DNA of 64,000 nucleotides. It comes from Burkholderiaceae bacterium 26 (GTDB lineage: Bacteria; Pseudomonadota; Gammaproteobacteria; Burkholderiales; Burkholderiaceae). Made by a program: the position numbers and the translations under genes. Below the pieces are notes generated by a model. That model did no database searches. It was not told the origin of the DNA and saw only the letters and a list, made by a program, of their open reading frames with translations. The stretch is from contig JYOB01000002.1 of assembly GCA_000955795.1 (NCBI GenBank), forward strand, positions 173,682 through 237,681, written 5' to 3'. Of the stretch, positions 563 to 33,731 are shown piece by piece (the first letter of the stretch is position 1; every line of letters starts with the position of its first letter).

Positions 563-1366
563 TCAGGCCGCCTCCGCCACCGGATGCCGCTGCTTCCGAT
601 ACAGAAAATCCAACACCGCCGTCCGACAAGCGTGATACGCCGGATCATCAGCAAGAGCCATCCGATCCCGAGGCCGCGGCAAATCCACCCTCAACACCTC
701 ACCGATCGTCGCAGCCGGCCCATTCGTCATCATCACGATGCGATCCGCCAGCAGCACCGCTTCATCCACATCGTGCGTGACCATCACCACCGTGCTGCCG
801 GTAGCGGCCACGATCTTCAGCAACTCATCCTGCAGATGCGCCCGCGTGAGTGCGTCCAGCGCGCCAAAGGGCTCATCCATCAGCAGCACCTTCGGCTCCA
901 TGGACAGCGCCCGCGCAATCCCCACCCGCTGTTTCATCCCGCCAGAGATCTCGTGCGGATGCTTCTGCTCGGCATGCGTGAGCCCCACCAACGCCAGCGC
1001 CGCATGCGTGCGCTCACGCAACTGCCCCTTCGTCTCCGTCTTCCCAAACACACGCTCGACGGCGAGATACACGTTGTCAAAGCACGTGAGCCACGGCAGC
1101 AGCGAGTGGTTCTGAAACACCACCGCCCGATCCGGCCCCGGCCCGGCGATCTCGCGTTCGGCCAGGATCAACCCACCCGTGGTCGGCCGCGTGAGCCCGG
1201 CAATGAGATTGAGCAACGTCGATTTGCCGCAGCCCGAGTGCCCGATGAGCGCGATGCACTCACCGCGCGCGACGGTCAGGTTGATGTCGCGCAGGGCAAC
1301 GAACGGGCCCCTCTTGGTCTTGAACGTCTGCCCGACGTTTTCGATGCGCAGGAATTTATCTGTCAT
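563..1366 (-). CDS. nrtD: Nitrate ABC transporter ATP-binding protein
   Basis: A 267-residue ABC ATPase that would power nitrate (or nitrite/taurine-class) import at the inner membrane. Visible are Walker A (GHSGCGKST), the signature (SGGMKQR), Walker B (VLLMDEP) and the H-loop (VTHDVDEA). The order and the substrate-binding partner fit the NrtD/SsuB/TauB group. The start chosen is the ATG giving MTDKFL; a longer open frame upstream lies inside the permease gene and is not plausible. It is the last gene of the minus-strand nrtA-nrtB-nrtD operon, 20 bases after the permease stop. No nitrate reductase gene follows inside the window. Confidence 0.93.
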
Positions 1367-1386
1367 GGCGATCCCCCCAATTTCCC

Positions 1387-2238
1387 TCAAACCGCGTCGT
1401 ACGAGAAGCGCCGTGCAATCGCCAGCAGCGCGTGCTCCAGCAGCAAGCCCACCACCCCAATCACGAAGATGGCGATGACGATGTGCTCGACCTTCAGGTT
1501 GTTCCATTCGTCCCAGAGCCAGAAGCCGATGCCGACACCGCCGGTGAGCATCTCTGCCGCGACGATCACCAGCCACGCGGTACCGATGGACAGCCGCACG
1601 CCGGTCAGCATGTACGGCAGCACGGCGGGAAACAGCACGCGCGTGAACACCTTCCACTCAGACAGGTTCAGCACACGCGCCACGTTCAGGTAGTCCTGCG
1701 GCACGCGCGTCACGCCCACGGCGGTGTTGATGACCATCGGCCAGATCGAGCAGATGAAGATCGCCCAGATGGCCGCTGGGTTGGCCGACTTGAACAGCAG
1801 CAGCCCGATCGGCAGCCACGCCAGCGGCGACACCGGCCGCAGCAGGCTGATGATGGGCGAGGCCATCGCATTGAGAAACGCAAAGCGCCCGATGATGAAG
1901 CCTGCCGGAATGCCGATGACCGCGGCCATGCCGAAGCCCGCACCCACGCGCGCCAGCGACGCCAGCACGTTCCAGCCCACACCTTGATCATTCGGGCCGT
2001 TGCGGTAGAACGGATCGGCAAACAGCGCGACCGCTGCTTTCCACGTCACTGCCGGTGTGGGCAGCGCCGGGATGGCGGTGGCGATGCCCTGCCACGCCAG
2101 CACAAACAGCACAAAGCCCAACACGGGCGGAAAGCCGCGTACCACGGCGGCGACAAACCAGTCGCGCACGGCAAAGCGGCGACGTTCAGGGGCGGCGTCG
2201 GACTGCACGCCGGACAACGTTTTGACGAGCGTGTTCAT
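1387..2238 (-). CDS. nrtB: Nitrate ABC transporter permease
   Basis: A 283-residue integral membrane protein of the NrtB/SsuC/TauC permease family with about six hydrophobic segments. The EAA-type cytoplasmic loop that contacts the ATPase lies near [20 protein letters not shown]. Start MNTLVKTL was preferred over two upstream in-frame ATGs because GGAG sits six bases before it. It lies between the binding protein and the ATPase on the same strand and is presumably cotranscribed from the sigma54 promoter upstream of nrtA. Confidence 0.93.
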
Positions 2239-2293
2239 GTCGGGCTCCATCGACGTGAGGGACCGCAATCAGAAATTCAGGAGGGCAGCGGCG

Positions 2294-3574
2294 TCAGGCT
2301 TTCAGCTTGAAACCGTCGGCATACGCGGCGGGGTTCTTCGCGTCCCACACCACGCCGTCGATCAGCTTGGCCGTGCGCATGTCGCTCTTGGGCAGCGGCG
2401 TGCCGGTGGCGGTTGCGGCCTGCTTGTAGATGTCGACGCGGTTGATCTGCTTCGCCACGGCCAGGTAATCCGGATGCGCCTTCAGCAGGCCCCAGCGCTT
2501 GTGCTGCGTGAGGAACCACATGCCGTCTGACAGGTACGGGAAGTTGACCGCCCCATCGTGATAGAAGCGCATCGGGTCCGGGTCGTCCCAGGTCTTGCCC
2601 AGACCATTCGAGTAGCGCCCCAGCATGCGGTCGAGAATGATGTCCATGTCGGTGTTGACGTAGGACTTGGCAGCAATGGTCTCGGCCGTCTTGCGGCGGT
2701 TTGATGCCGACGCATCGATGAACTTGCTTGCCTCCAGCACCGCGGCTGTGAGCGCGCGCGCCGTGTTCGGATACTTCTGCACGAACTCGGCCGTGGTGCC
2801 CAGCACCTTCTCCGGGTGATCTTTCCAGATGGCTTGTGTGGTCTCGGCGGTAAAGCCGATGTTGTCGGCAATCGCGCGGGCGCCCCACGGCTCGCCCACG
2901 CAGAAGCCATCCATGTTGCCCACGCGCATGTTGGCCACCATCTGCGGCGGCGGCACGGTAATCGCCTTGGCGTCCTGCAGCGGGTGGATGCCATGCGCGG
3001 CCAGCCAGTAGTACAGCCACATCGCGTGTGTGCCGGTCGGGAAGGTCTGCGCGAACACATATTCGCGCTTGTCCTTCGCCATGACGGCCTTCAACGATGC
3101 GCCATCCTTCACGCCCGCTTCCTTGAGCTTGGATGACAGCGTGATCGCCTGGCCGTTGTTGTTCAGCGTCATCAGCACGGCCATGTCCTTCTTGGGGCCG
3201 CCAATGCCGAGCTGCACACCGTAGATCAAGCCGTAGAGCACGTGCGCCGCATCCAGGTCGCCCGACGCCAGCTTGTCGCGCACACCGGCCCACGAGGCTT
3301 CTTTCGATGGCGTGATCTTGATGCCGTACTTCTTGTCGATGCCCAGCGTGGACGCCATGACCACCGAGGCGCAGTCCGTGAGCGGGATGAAGCCGACCTT
3401 CAGCTCGGTCTTCTCGGGCGCATCGGAGCCGGCGGCCCAGGCGCCGGCACGCACCAGCGGATCGATCAATGCCACGGCACTGCCTCCTGCAATCGTCGCC
3501 GCGGCTTTCATGATGCTGCGGCGCTTGGGGTTGATCGGGTTGACGAGGGCGTCGGTCTTGTCTGGCGCGGCCAT
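2294..3574 (-). CDS. nrtA: Nitrate ABC transporter substrate-binding protein
   Basis: A 426-residue CmpA/NrtA-type periplasmic binding protein. The N-terminus carries a twin-arginine-like signal (KRRSIMKAAATIAGG, residues about 17-31), so export as a folded protein by Tat is likely. The mature part begins around the run of charged residues before LKVGFIPLTDCASVV, a typical start for this family. The start (MAAPDK) has GGAG six bases upstream, immediately after the U-tract of the leader terminator. It is the first structural gene of the nrt operon and is subject to the leader control annotated at 3585-3721. The specific substrate, nitrate, is inferred from linkage to nasT. Confidence 0.93.
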   Translation of the reverse strand: MAAPDKTDALVNPINPKRRSIMKAAATIAGGSAVALIDPLVRAGAWAAGSDAPEKTELKVGFIPLTDCASVVMASTLGIDKKYGIKITPSKEASWAGVRDKLASGDLDAAHVLYGLIYGVQLGIGGPKKDMAVLMTLNNNGQAITLSSKLKEAGVKDGASLKAVMAKDKREYVFAQTFPTGTHAMWLYYWLAAHGIHPLQDAKAITVPPPQMVANMRVGNMDGFCVGEPWGARAIADNIGFTAETTQAIWKDHPEKVLGTTAEFVQKYPNTARALTAAVLEASKFIDASASNRRKTAETIAAKSYVNTDMDIILDRMLGRYSNGLGKTWDDPDPMRFYHDGAVNFPYLSDGMWFLTQHKRWGLLKAHPDYLAVAKQINRVDIYKQAATATGTPLPKSDMRTAKLIDGVVWDAKNPAAYADGFKLKA

Positions 3575-3584
3575 CCATGGCTCC

Positions 3585-3657
3585 AAAGAAAAGGCGTCCC
3601 GACGCAGGACTGCCGCCCATCCGCAAAGAGGGTCGCGCTGCCGTGCATCGGGACGCC
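3585..3657 (-). terminator. Intrinsic terminator (attenuator) in the nrtA leader
   Basis: On the minus strand two perfectly complementary 10-base arms (3648-3657 and 3593-3602, GGCGTCCCGA / TCGGGACGCC) enclose a 45-base loop and are followed at once by TTTTCTTT and then the nrtA ribosome binding site. Any transcript reaching nrtA has to pass this hairpin. Its 5' arm overlaps the 3' arm of the preceding hexaloop stem (3649-3654), so the two structures exclude each other. That is the expected design for ANTAR-type antitermination. Confidence 0.85.
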
Positions 3658-3691
3658 GTTGTCCCGTGCCGATACCCACGTTGGCACCGGC
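3649..3691 (-). promoter_or_regulatory. Dual hexaloop ANTAR (NasT) RNA target in the nrtA leader
   Basis: Read on the minus strand, stem-loop P1 (3691-3668) has a 9-bp stem with two G-U pairs around loop AACGTG. Stem-loop P2 (3666-3649) has stem CGGGAC/GTCCCG around loop AACGGC. Both loops are six bases long with A at position 1 and G at position 4, the known signature recognised by ANTAR domains. P2 overlaps the terminator arm. The only ANTAR protein in view, nasT, is encoded directly upstream. Binding of NasT should hold P2 and stop terminator formation. Confidence 0.85.
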
Positions 3692-3705
3692 TTCGAAGCG
3701 ACACT

Positions 3706-3721
3706 TGCAAGGGGTATGCCA
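3706..3721 (-). promoter_or_regulatory. Sigma54 (-24/-12) promoter of the nrt operon
   Basis: The minus strand reads TGGCATACCCCTTGCA, an exact match to TGGCAYR-N4-TTGCW. The GC of the -12 element predicts a start near 3695, only a few bases before stem-loop P1, so the transcript would begin with the ANTAR target. Sigma54 dependence implies activation by NtrC or a similar enhancer protein. rpoN is in this same window at 28113-29624. Confidence 0.85.
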
Positions 3722-3748: not shown

Positions 3749-4032
3749 GCGTTCGGAGCTCCACGGGCCGAGCTTTTTTCTCGGCGCCCCGAGCTCAGAG
3801 CTCCGCGTGCGAGGCTTTTAGCTCGGCAACCGGAGCTCAGAACTCGACGCGCGAGGCTTTTAGCTCGGCCGTTGGAGTTCGGAGCTCGGCGCGTGAGGCT
3901 TTTTGCTCGGCGGTTGAGGCTCGGAGCTCGGCGCGTGAGGCTTTTAGCTCGGCGGTTGAGGTTCGGAACTCGGCGTGTGAGGCTTTTAGCTCGACGATCG
4001 GGGTTCGGAACTCGGTGTGTGAGGTTCGGAGC
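3749..4032. repeat. 42-bp tandem repeat, about seven degenerate units
   Basis: Units share GAGGCTTTTAGCTCGG and a GTTCGGAGCTCGGCG-type segment at a 42-bp period, with several substitutions per unit. Because 42 is a multiple of three, both strands stay open. The minus frame reads as a 14-residue repeat (consensus near TAELKASRAELRTS), which has two-heptad periodicity. The array fills the space between nasT and the nrt sigma54 promoter, where enhancer sites would be expected. No ribosome binding site or ATG supports translation. Confidence 0.85.
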
Positions 4033-4104
4033 GCCGCGCGCGACTGGTGCGTTTCCAGCGCCGGAGTTGTGCGGCGCACCAAAACTGGGCGGTGGCCCGA
4101 CCGC

Positions 4105-4743
4105 TCAACTGGCCATCACATCGATCACGCGTTGGGCGGCTTCCACCAGCTTGATGTTGCGGTCCATCGCCATCTTGCGCAGGCGTTTGAAGGCGTCGTC
4201 TTCCGACAGGTTCATCTGCTTCATCAGGAGGCCCTTGGCGCGTTCAAGCACTTTGCGTTCGGCCAGCTGCGTCTTGGCGGTGTCCAGCTCGGCGCGCAGT
4301 GCACTCTCGTGCTCGAAGCGGGCGTAGGCCACGTCCAACACAGCCTTGACGCGCGTGGGTTTGATGCCGTCGACGATGTAAGCCGTGATGCCGGCGGCAA
4401 ACGCCGTCTTGATGCGCGTGGCGTCGTCGTTGTCGGTAAACAGCACGATCGGGCGCGGCGCATGCTGTGTGGCCACGCAGACGTGTTCGATGGTGTCCCG
4501 CGCGGCCGATTCAGACGCGACGATGACCATGTCAGGCTGTGTCTCGGCAATGCGCTCTGGCAGCGTCAGGTCGGCGTCCGCCAGGCCCACATCCACAAAG
4601 CCAGCCTCGGCCAGTCCGGCGCGGATCAGCTCGAGGTTGATCTGTTCAGCATCGAGCGGATCGCGCACCAACAGCACGCGCATCGGCGCAGCCGGGTGTA
4701 GGGCGGCGGGCGGGGCAGATGGGGCGGGTGGTTTCGTTTGCAT
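4105..4743 (-). CDS. nasT: NasT-type ANTAR antitermination regulator
   Basis: A 212-residue response regulator: a receiver-like domain (from MRVLLVRDPLDAEQ) followed by a C-terminal ANTAR RNA-binding helix bundle (LAERKVLERAKGLLMKQ through LVEAAQRVIDVM). Family members bind hexaloop RNA pairs and prevent termination in nitrate assimilation leaders when released by a nitrate sensor such as NasS. It is divergent from nagK and upstream of nrtA, whose leader has the matching target. No nasS gene is adjacent; the NrtA-like binding protein itself could serve as sensor, which is speculation. Start is uncertain: MQTK (4743) is used, but MRVLLV (4683) fits the domain edge. Confidence 0.9.
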   Translation of the reverse strand: MQTKPPAPSAPPAALHPAAPMRVLLVRDPLDAEQINLELIRAGLAEAGFVDVGLADADLTLPERIAETQPDMVIVASESAARDTIEHVCVATQHAPRPIVLFTDNDDATRIKTAFAAGITAYIVDGIKPTRVKAVLDVAYARFEHESALRAELDTAKTQLAERKVLERAKGLLMKQMNLSEDDAFKRLRKMAMDRNIKLVEAAQRVIDVMAS

Positions 4744-33408: not shown

Positions 33409-33731
33409 GGCGGCGAAGTATAACAACGATTGACACTGGCCCTGATTGGCTGCCGTTCGTTCTGGCATTGCATTTGGGCTGGCTTTGCGGGGAGTCGCGG
33501 GGCGTGCGGGCGCTCCGTTTTGCTGCGCCGCGGCATTCAGCTTTCAAATCACTTTTCTGCCCGTCGCCACGCCGTCATTTTTTTGCTCTGCGGCGTCTCG
33601 CGTATCGCGTTCTTCGTTTATATCCTGGCATCGGTCTTGCAGCGCCTGCGTGCTCGCTTGCGCACGCACCGTCCTGATGCGCGGCATCTGGCCCTCCTGT
33701 CCAACCTCTTTCGATTGGTTTTTCGCGTCGC
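33409..33731. other. Divergent intergenic region between kdsD and the antiporter gene
   Basis: About 320 bases containing the promoters of two divergent genes. Several open frames cross it, but none has family similarity or a ribosome binding site. TTGACA occurs at 33430 on the plus strand without a good -10 at the expected spacing. Confidence 0.6.

Follow-up and report, generated by a model that had tools for sequence, protein, structure and literature searches.

A putative NasT-dependent attenuator upstream of nrtABC

We found that the nrtABC genes in a 64,000-nucleotide stretch of DNA (the window, by which we mean the whole stretch analysed) are preceded by a leader that is, to judge from its sequence, a textbook ANTAR/NasT attenuator in a new place, and that its NasT belongs to a variant without NasS. 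It is highly probable that this leader operates as a sigma54-driven transcription attenuator of the NasT/ANTAR type, and control of nrtABC termination by NasT is likely to the same degree. The window's genome is, on sequence similarity, a Ralstonia related to Ralstonia pickettii; its NasT shares 92-99% identity with the NasT of 10 Ralstonia-titled loci and 100% with the NasT of one Burkholderiaceae MAG.

The leader lies on the minus strand between nasT and nrtA (Table 1). A preliminary description of this DNA had named an exact -24/-12 promoter, two stem-loops with the hexaloops AACGTG and AACGGC, a 10-bp terminator overlapping the second stem and, after it, a U-tract, a ribosome site and nrtA in that order, and each of these elements was recovered on re-reading. 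The promoter element has the form GG-N10-GC. Counting the C of its TTGC (3707) as -12 puts the predicted start of transcription (+1) at 3695, four bases before the first hairpin (P1) begins, which agrees with the distance of about four bases claimed earlier. Both hexaloops carry A at position 1 (A1) and G at position 4 (G4), as ANTAR leaders do; P1 and the second hairpin (P2) are separated by a single nucleotide, and the step from loop to loop is 22 nt. The description had also placed nasT directly upstream: nasT is indeed upstream, but about 380 bp separate its stop codon (4107-4105) from the promoter. Downstream, the true start of nrtC is probably inside its annotated frame.

Table 1. Features of the nrtABC leader, its surroundings and two further leaders (window positions unless another contig is given)
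Feature	Position	Strand	Basis or detail
nrtC, ATPase	563..1657	-	TIGR01184, 343 bits over residues 122-352
nrtB, permease	1387..2268	-	TIGR01183, 246 bits, above cut-off
nrtA, nitrate-binding protein, twin-arginine-like signal	2294..3574	-	PDB 2g29 NrtA, E 6.5e-85; RR signal by eye
nrtA start codon ATG	3574-3572	-	
Ribosome site GGAG	3584-3581	-	
U-tract TTTTCTTT	3592-3585	-	
Intrinsic terminator, 10-bp stem, 14 bp in predicted fold	3593..3657	-	Folds; consensus fold over 33 leaders
Terminator 3' arm TCGGGACGCC	3602-3593	-	
Terminator 5' arm GGCGTCCCGA	3657-3648	-	Starts within P2 loop
P2 hairpin CGGGAC-AACGGC-GTCCCG, 6-bp stem, hexaloop AACGGC	3666-3649	-	Overlaps terminator 5' arm
P1 hairpin GCCGGTGCC-AACGTG-GGTATCGGC, 9-bp stem, hexaloop AACGTG	3691-3668	-	Pairs kept in 9 Ralstonia leaders
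Sigma54-type -24/-12 promoter element TGGCATACCCCTTGCA	3721-3706	-	Exact match; also precedes hairpins in relatives
Array of 42/21-bp tandem repeats separating the enhancer-like boxes from the promoter	3756..4032	-	TRF
Pair of adjacent degenerate boxes, possibly an NtrC-type enhancer	4058..4091	-	Just past nasT stop
nasT, receiver-like and ANTAR RNA-binding domains	4105..4683	-	Pfam ANTAR 72.8 bits; receiver 20.7 (cut-off 30.2)
Second leader (L168), sigma54 element, weak P1, hexaloop/terminator	Own genome C1:208464-208520	-	
PilJ-domain protein behind the third leader (L173)	Own genome C2:521425-522153		

In the mechanism that we propose, sigma54 RNA polymerase, possibly with NtrC as its activator when nitrogen is limiting, would start near 3695, and P1 and P2 would fold while being transcribed. 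With the two hairpins unheld, the P2 3' arm would be drawn into the terminator, ending transcription at the U-tract; NasT bound to both hexaloops would keep P2 in place, so that no terminator would form and nrtABC would be transcribed.

Folding and rarity of the leader

The RNA from 3700 to 3575 folds 4.9 standard deviations below dinucleotide shuffles, none of 200 shuffles reaching its level. The best predicted fold contains the terminator (-62.8 kcal/mol, against -48.1 kcal/mol when P1 and P2 are forced), and in RNA that runs from 3695 and ends short of the terminator's 3' arm, every pair of P1 and of P2 has a predicted probability of at least 0.96. The nascent RNA is thus predicted to form the two hairpins before the terminator, the terminator fold winning once it is complete; this is consistent with the two alternative structures envisaged in the preliminary description, and the models make the second hairpin and the intrinsic terminator mutually exclusive.

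Exact matches to TGGCAYN5TTGCW number two in the 64 kb, one being the leader promoter and the other at 33626. With one mismatch allowed there are five in the window against a chance mean of 5.5, and because this count is at chance level the promoter motif is weak evidence when taken by itself. The combination of a hexaloop hairpin with a 3' arm shared by a T-tailed terminator occurs at a single site on the two strands of the window, and the same scan of both strands of 20 Markov-shuffled windows returned no site. On 96 loci the same strict scan gave 23 matches; one of them (L073, loop ACAGGT) is of another type, so that chance matches do occur.

Conservation of the leader in relatives

The locus set comprised 26 loci of titled contigs and the best matches from a scan of the genus (16 genomes). 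A scan of the family covered 398 genomes, 297 of them with an ANTAR match, from which the best loci (30 at most) were used, and 40 further stretches were picked among the family matches listed. In Ralstonia and its sister genera, loci that have nrtA downstream repeat the order promoter, P1, P2, terminator, and the distance between leader and promoter is nearly fixed in these relatives. P1 was present in 41 of 42 distinct leaders having a strict promoter and P2; as the P1 scan accepted only hairpins with A1, G4 and a stem of 4, the identity of the loop is not independent evidence here. In Burkholderiaceae rows the first base of the P1 stem lies at +1 to +5, in Moraxellaceae-type rows at +14 to +16. 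In a consensus fold of 33 leaders, 6 of 12 pairs have one or more rows with a double change. Within Ralstonia (nine leaders), 134 of 135 cells pair and double changes affect 2 of 15 pairs, a level equalled by 32 of 500 shuffles, so that covariation within the genus gives thin support.

Pattern searches did not find P2 in seven loci (L020, L050, L068, L026, L031, L071 and L090). Three of these, L068 and the pair L020 and L050 (one leader seen twice), do have the hairpin but do not match the U-tract pattern, and the hairpin loop of L026 reads AATGGT. For L071 and L090 the pattern search found neither promoter nor hairpins, and only 118 and 155 bp, respectively, separate nasT from the first nrtA residue in the alignment; with the two genes so close, a natural loss of the leader is possible there. 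One locus (L066) has P2 without a strict promoter.

Leaders in one sister genus (g3, which we guess to be Cupriavidus) differ in the number of their hexaloops: 15 of 20 have a third, the middle one lying 24-27 nt before P2, against two hexaloops 22 nt apart in Ralstonia. The leaders with three are L063, L070, L075, L079-L082, L085, L086, L089, L091-L093, L097 and L098.

Relation to Rfam families

At gathering thresholds the Rfam search returned only a tRNA, the leader falling below the cut-offs of two families that match it end to end: RF03032 (narK RNA; 31.8 bits, gathering 43.2) and RF00625 (P11; 28.3 bits, gathering 70). RF03032 reached its gathering score in none of the 16 genomes of the genus. 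By reading, both consensuses contain two hexaloops, of which the annotated structures show the first and not the second. Over the span 3733-3593 of the minus strand, both consensuses also carry -24/-12 letters near their 5' end. Each family probably describes an ANTAR-type leader together with its promoter, and reading narK RNA and P11 as a sigma54 promoter plus ANTAR hexaloops would alter the annotation of both. An antitermination study of P11 and the Pseudomonas nirBD operon is reportedly in print; for narK RNA or the narK motif we found nothing in the open-licence literature.

Rfam files P11 as a gene, and the end-to-end match of the leader to that family could be taken to mean that the terminated 5' product is a trans-acting small RNA, readthrough being incidental. 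We consider this highly improbable, given that what comes immediately downstream is a terminator, a ribosome site and a gene of a nitrate transporter, and that other nitrate genes have similar leaders.

NasT and known ANTAR systems

The candidate regulator of the proposed attenuator has the NasT architecture of a receiver-like domain plus ANTAR, the receiver part scoring below the Pfam cut-off, and carries no recognised nitrate-sensing domain. It is the sole ANTAR match in the window's genome, and one match per genome was likewise found in 16/16 genomes of the genus. Its matches among solved structures are 1s8n, 6wsh (response regulator) and 4akk (nitrate regulatory protein); we take 6wsh to be EutV and 4akk to be NasR.

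The comparisons that follow draw on excerpts of the cited papers. The structure 1s8n is that of Rv1626, and the EutV residues that contact G4 are Arg142, Lys149, Glu160 and Tyr164 (PMC8934654); at the aligned positions, on an inferred numbering offset, the window's NasT has R, K, E and F, the tyrosine being replaced by phenylalanine. The Enterococcus faecalis EutV/eut system resembles the nrtA leader in these contact residues and in its dual hexaloop, the second exclusive with the terminator, whereas EutV is activated by phosphorylation and the Ralstonia NasT receiver is without the aspartate (PMC3369931, PMC8934654). The linker between hairpins is 5-12 nt in eut leaders, a range known for EutV only, as against 1 nt in the nrtA leader, and a 3-nt linker was harmful in eut genes (PMC3369931). 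Klebsiella oxytoca NasR/nasF likewise has A1/G4 hexaloop hairpins before a terminator, upstream of nitrate assimilation genes, although NasR has a nitrate-sensing NIT domain of its own and the Ralstonia NasT has no recognised one (PMC3369931, PMC7496416). Another close system is NasS-NasT/nasA of Paracoccus denitrificans, in which a receiver-plus-ANTAR NasT likewise goes with leader hairpins before nitrate assimilation genes and bound the nasA leader RNA; there, nitrate frees NasT from NasS, whereas for the Ralstonia leader NasS is undetected and the receiver aspartate lost (PMC3795266). Acidovorax citrulli has nasS and nasT together (PMC10052978).

Among the open-licence titles and abstract openings listed, we found none on the nrtA leader or on a NasT lacking NasS, and the open-licence literature yielded no expression or binding report for the window's species. 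Nitrate assimilation in R. solanacearum is said to be the subject of a 2014 paper. Text matches to ANTAR and NasT in excerpts of two R. solanacearum papers (PMC10763947, PMC10653808) fell by chance within unrelated words (Antarctic, Nastou).

Further leaders in the genome

A covariance model built from 33 leaders, those of Ralstonia included, recovered the nrtA leader in 16/16 genomes of the genus, as expected, together with one further match of 55-57 nt in each. In the window's genome, where gene context was read, this second leader (Table 1) precedes a major-facilitator transporter, presumably narK-like, and nirB. The third leader precedes a protein of 243 residues with a PilJ domain (42.4 bits) and a partial MCP domain below cut-off. 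For 16 loci of this protein (L171-L186), taken from 19 strong, nearly full-length matches, a sigma54 element was found in 16/16 and two hexaloops in addition in 14/16, the window's genome included; a terminator is visible by eye in the three such leaders inspected. When the model was run on the window's genome, with 150 of 8274 candidates scored, the leader of the PilJ-domain protein was not among the matches listed. The one NasT of this genome probably serves at least two leaders besides that of nrtA.

NasS and the nitrate input to NasT

The more interesting part of the system is how nitrate would reach a NasT without NasS. Elsewhere, according to excerpts of PMC3795266, NasS holds NasT until nitrate or nitrite is bound. 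A search with a NasS of the family detected no NasS in any of the 16 Ralstonia genomes; it returned NrtA, complete or fragmented, all other matches being of 24-29% identity. Among 27 genomes of the sister genera g3, g17 and g18 with the same NasT type, 24 gave only NrtA at E <= 1e-15 and three (G106, G355 and G066) gave NrtA plus a homologue of 30-33% identity; the same search of nine NasS-bearing genomes gave NasS at 59-100% identity. Apart from NrtA, the strongest NMT1_2 match in the window's genome reaches 100 bits, whereas two NasS-like proteins reach 217 and 298. The protein next best after NrtA (L003) was rejected as a NasS because it has a signal-like N-terminus and, by eye, neighbours an ABC ATPase and a CoA-transferase-like gene, and so reads as a transporter part.

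The receiver is altered in the same clade. Its NasT proteins form one branch (support 100/100) with 38 of 70 distinct rows, and the receiver aspartate is replaced by alanine in 50 and glutamate in 3 of its 53 loci, a count in which some species appear twice, from two collections. At loci labelled nasT-then-nasS the residue is D in 20 of 21, the exception (L052) being a gap. Phosphorylation is therefore an unlikely input to NasT in this clade. The three glutamates (L059, L064 and L087) might mimic the phosphorylated state. Nine genomes outside the family, eight of them MAGs, argue against a simple link between loss of NasS and loss of the aspartate. One (L021) is a Methylophilales MAG and the others (L022 and L024-L030) group with Moraxellaceae; all nine gave only NrtA at E <= 1e-10, lie on other branches of the tree and keep the D.

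We infer that, in this clade, either the nitrate signal gets to NasT in some other way or control by nitrate has partly disappeared. Antitermination, as claimed in the preliminary description, remains the best reading of the leader; the nitrate response that it expected is less secure, because NasS, which confers that response elsewhere, was not found. The clade can test whether NasT needs any sensor partner, since it has kept several RNA switches with no NasS detected and a degenerate receiver.

One possibility, which we doubt, is that the RNA switch works as proposed with a NasT that is constitutively active in this clade, the leader reporting the amount of NasT and, through sigma54, nitrogen status, and not nitrate. 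Both the missing NasS in 16/16 genomes of the genus and the aspartate replaced in 53/53 clade loci would fit; maintaining such leaders at three places in the genome would be costly without a signal of their own.

The same RNA switch might instead be informed by a part of the transporter, either an NrtA precursor folded in the cytoplasm or an idle NrtC ATPase holding NasT. MalK, which holds MalT, is a precedent for an idle ATPase holding a regulator, and in twin-arginine export the precursor is folded in the cytoplasm beforehand; the signal of NrtA looks to be of the RR type. NrtA shares about 50% identity with a NasS. Of 36 genomes compared at E <= 1e-15, the 27 with the clade's NasT type have an NrtA at the nasT locus and the nine NasS-bearing ones are without a further homologue above 31% identity; the nine genomes outside the family also combine nasT and NrtA, with no NasS detected. 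This evidence is one of co-occurrence, however; little NrtA would be made before induction from a gene behind a terminator, and one locus (L033) carries both NasS-like and NrtA-like genes, so that the two are not exclusive in general. We regard a sensing role of the transporter as unlikely. The wider proposal, that Ralstonia and its sister genera use a NasS-free NasT antiterminator with a lost phosphorylation site, signalled by its own transporter (NrtA precursor or idle ABC), is equally speculative, and if NrtA or the ABC transporter did sense nitrate it would add one more ANTAR input mechanism.

It is very unlikely that the soluble PilJ-domain protein took over the sensor role of NasS, a role that its domain and its own sigma54 element and hexaloops might suggest. 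Strong matches are present in 9/16 Ralstonia, 6/24 g3 and 0/3 g17/g18 genomes, and also in 3/9 NasS-bearing genomes; this patchy distribution argues against a general sensor, a role in single species being possible.

The region between nasT and the promoter

The gap between nasT and the promoter contains a pair of NtrC-like boxes and an array of 42-bp tandem repeats. The core of the box pair, TGGTGCrN1-3GCACr, is found in 24/24 Ralstonia rows and 14/21 g3 rows, but the window has it at two further sites. Taken singly, the boxes each agree with only 8 of 12 letters of the NtrC consensus, and 280 window sites do as well or better; use of NtrC at this promoter is a possibility.

The repeats were rejected as a specific feature of the nrtA promoter, because the repeat family is dispersed in the genome (11 matches at about eight places). 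By a crude count of repeat words the array is present in 18 rows, the window included, and in 14 of these the distance from nasT to the promoter is 42n+8 bp; two others (L014 and L040) are off by 21, and L018 and L047 fall outside the rule. The array spacer of the 14 rows thus differs by multiples of 42 bp, about four helical turns.
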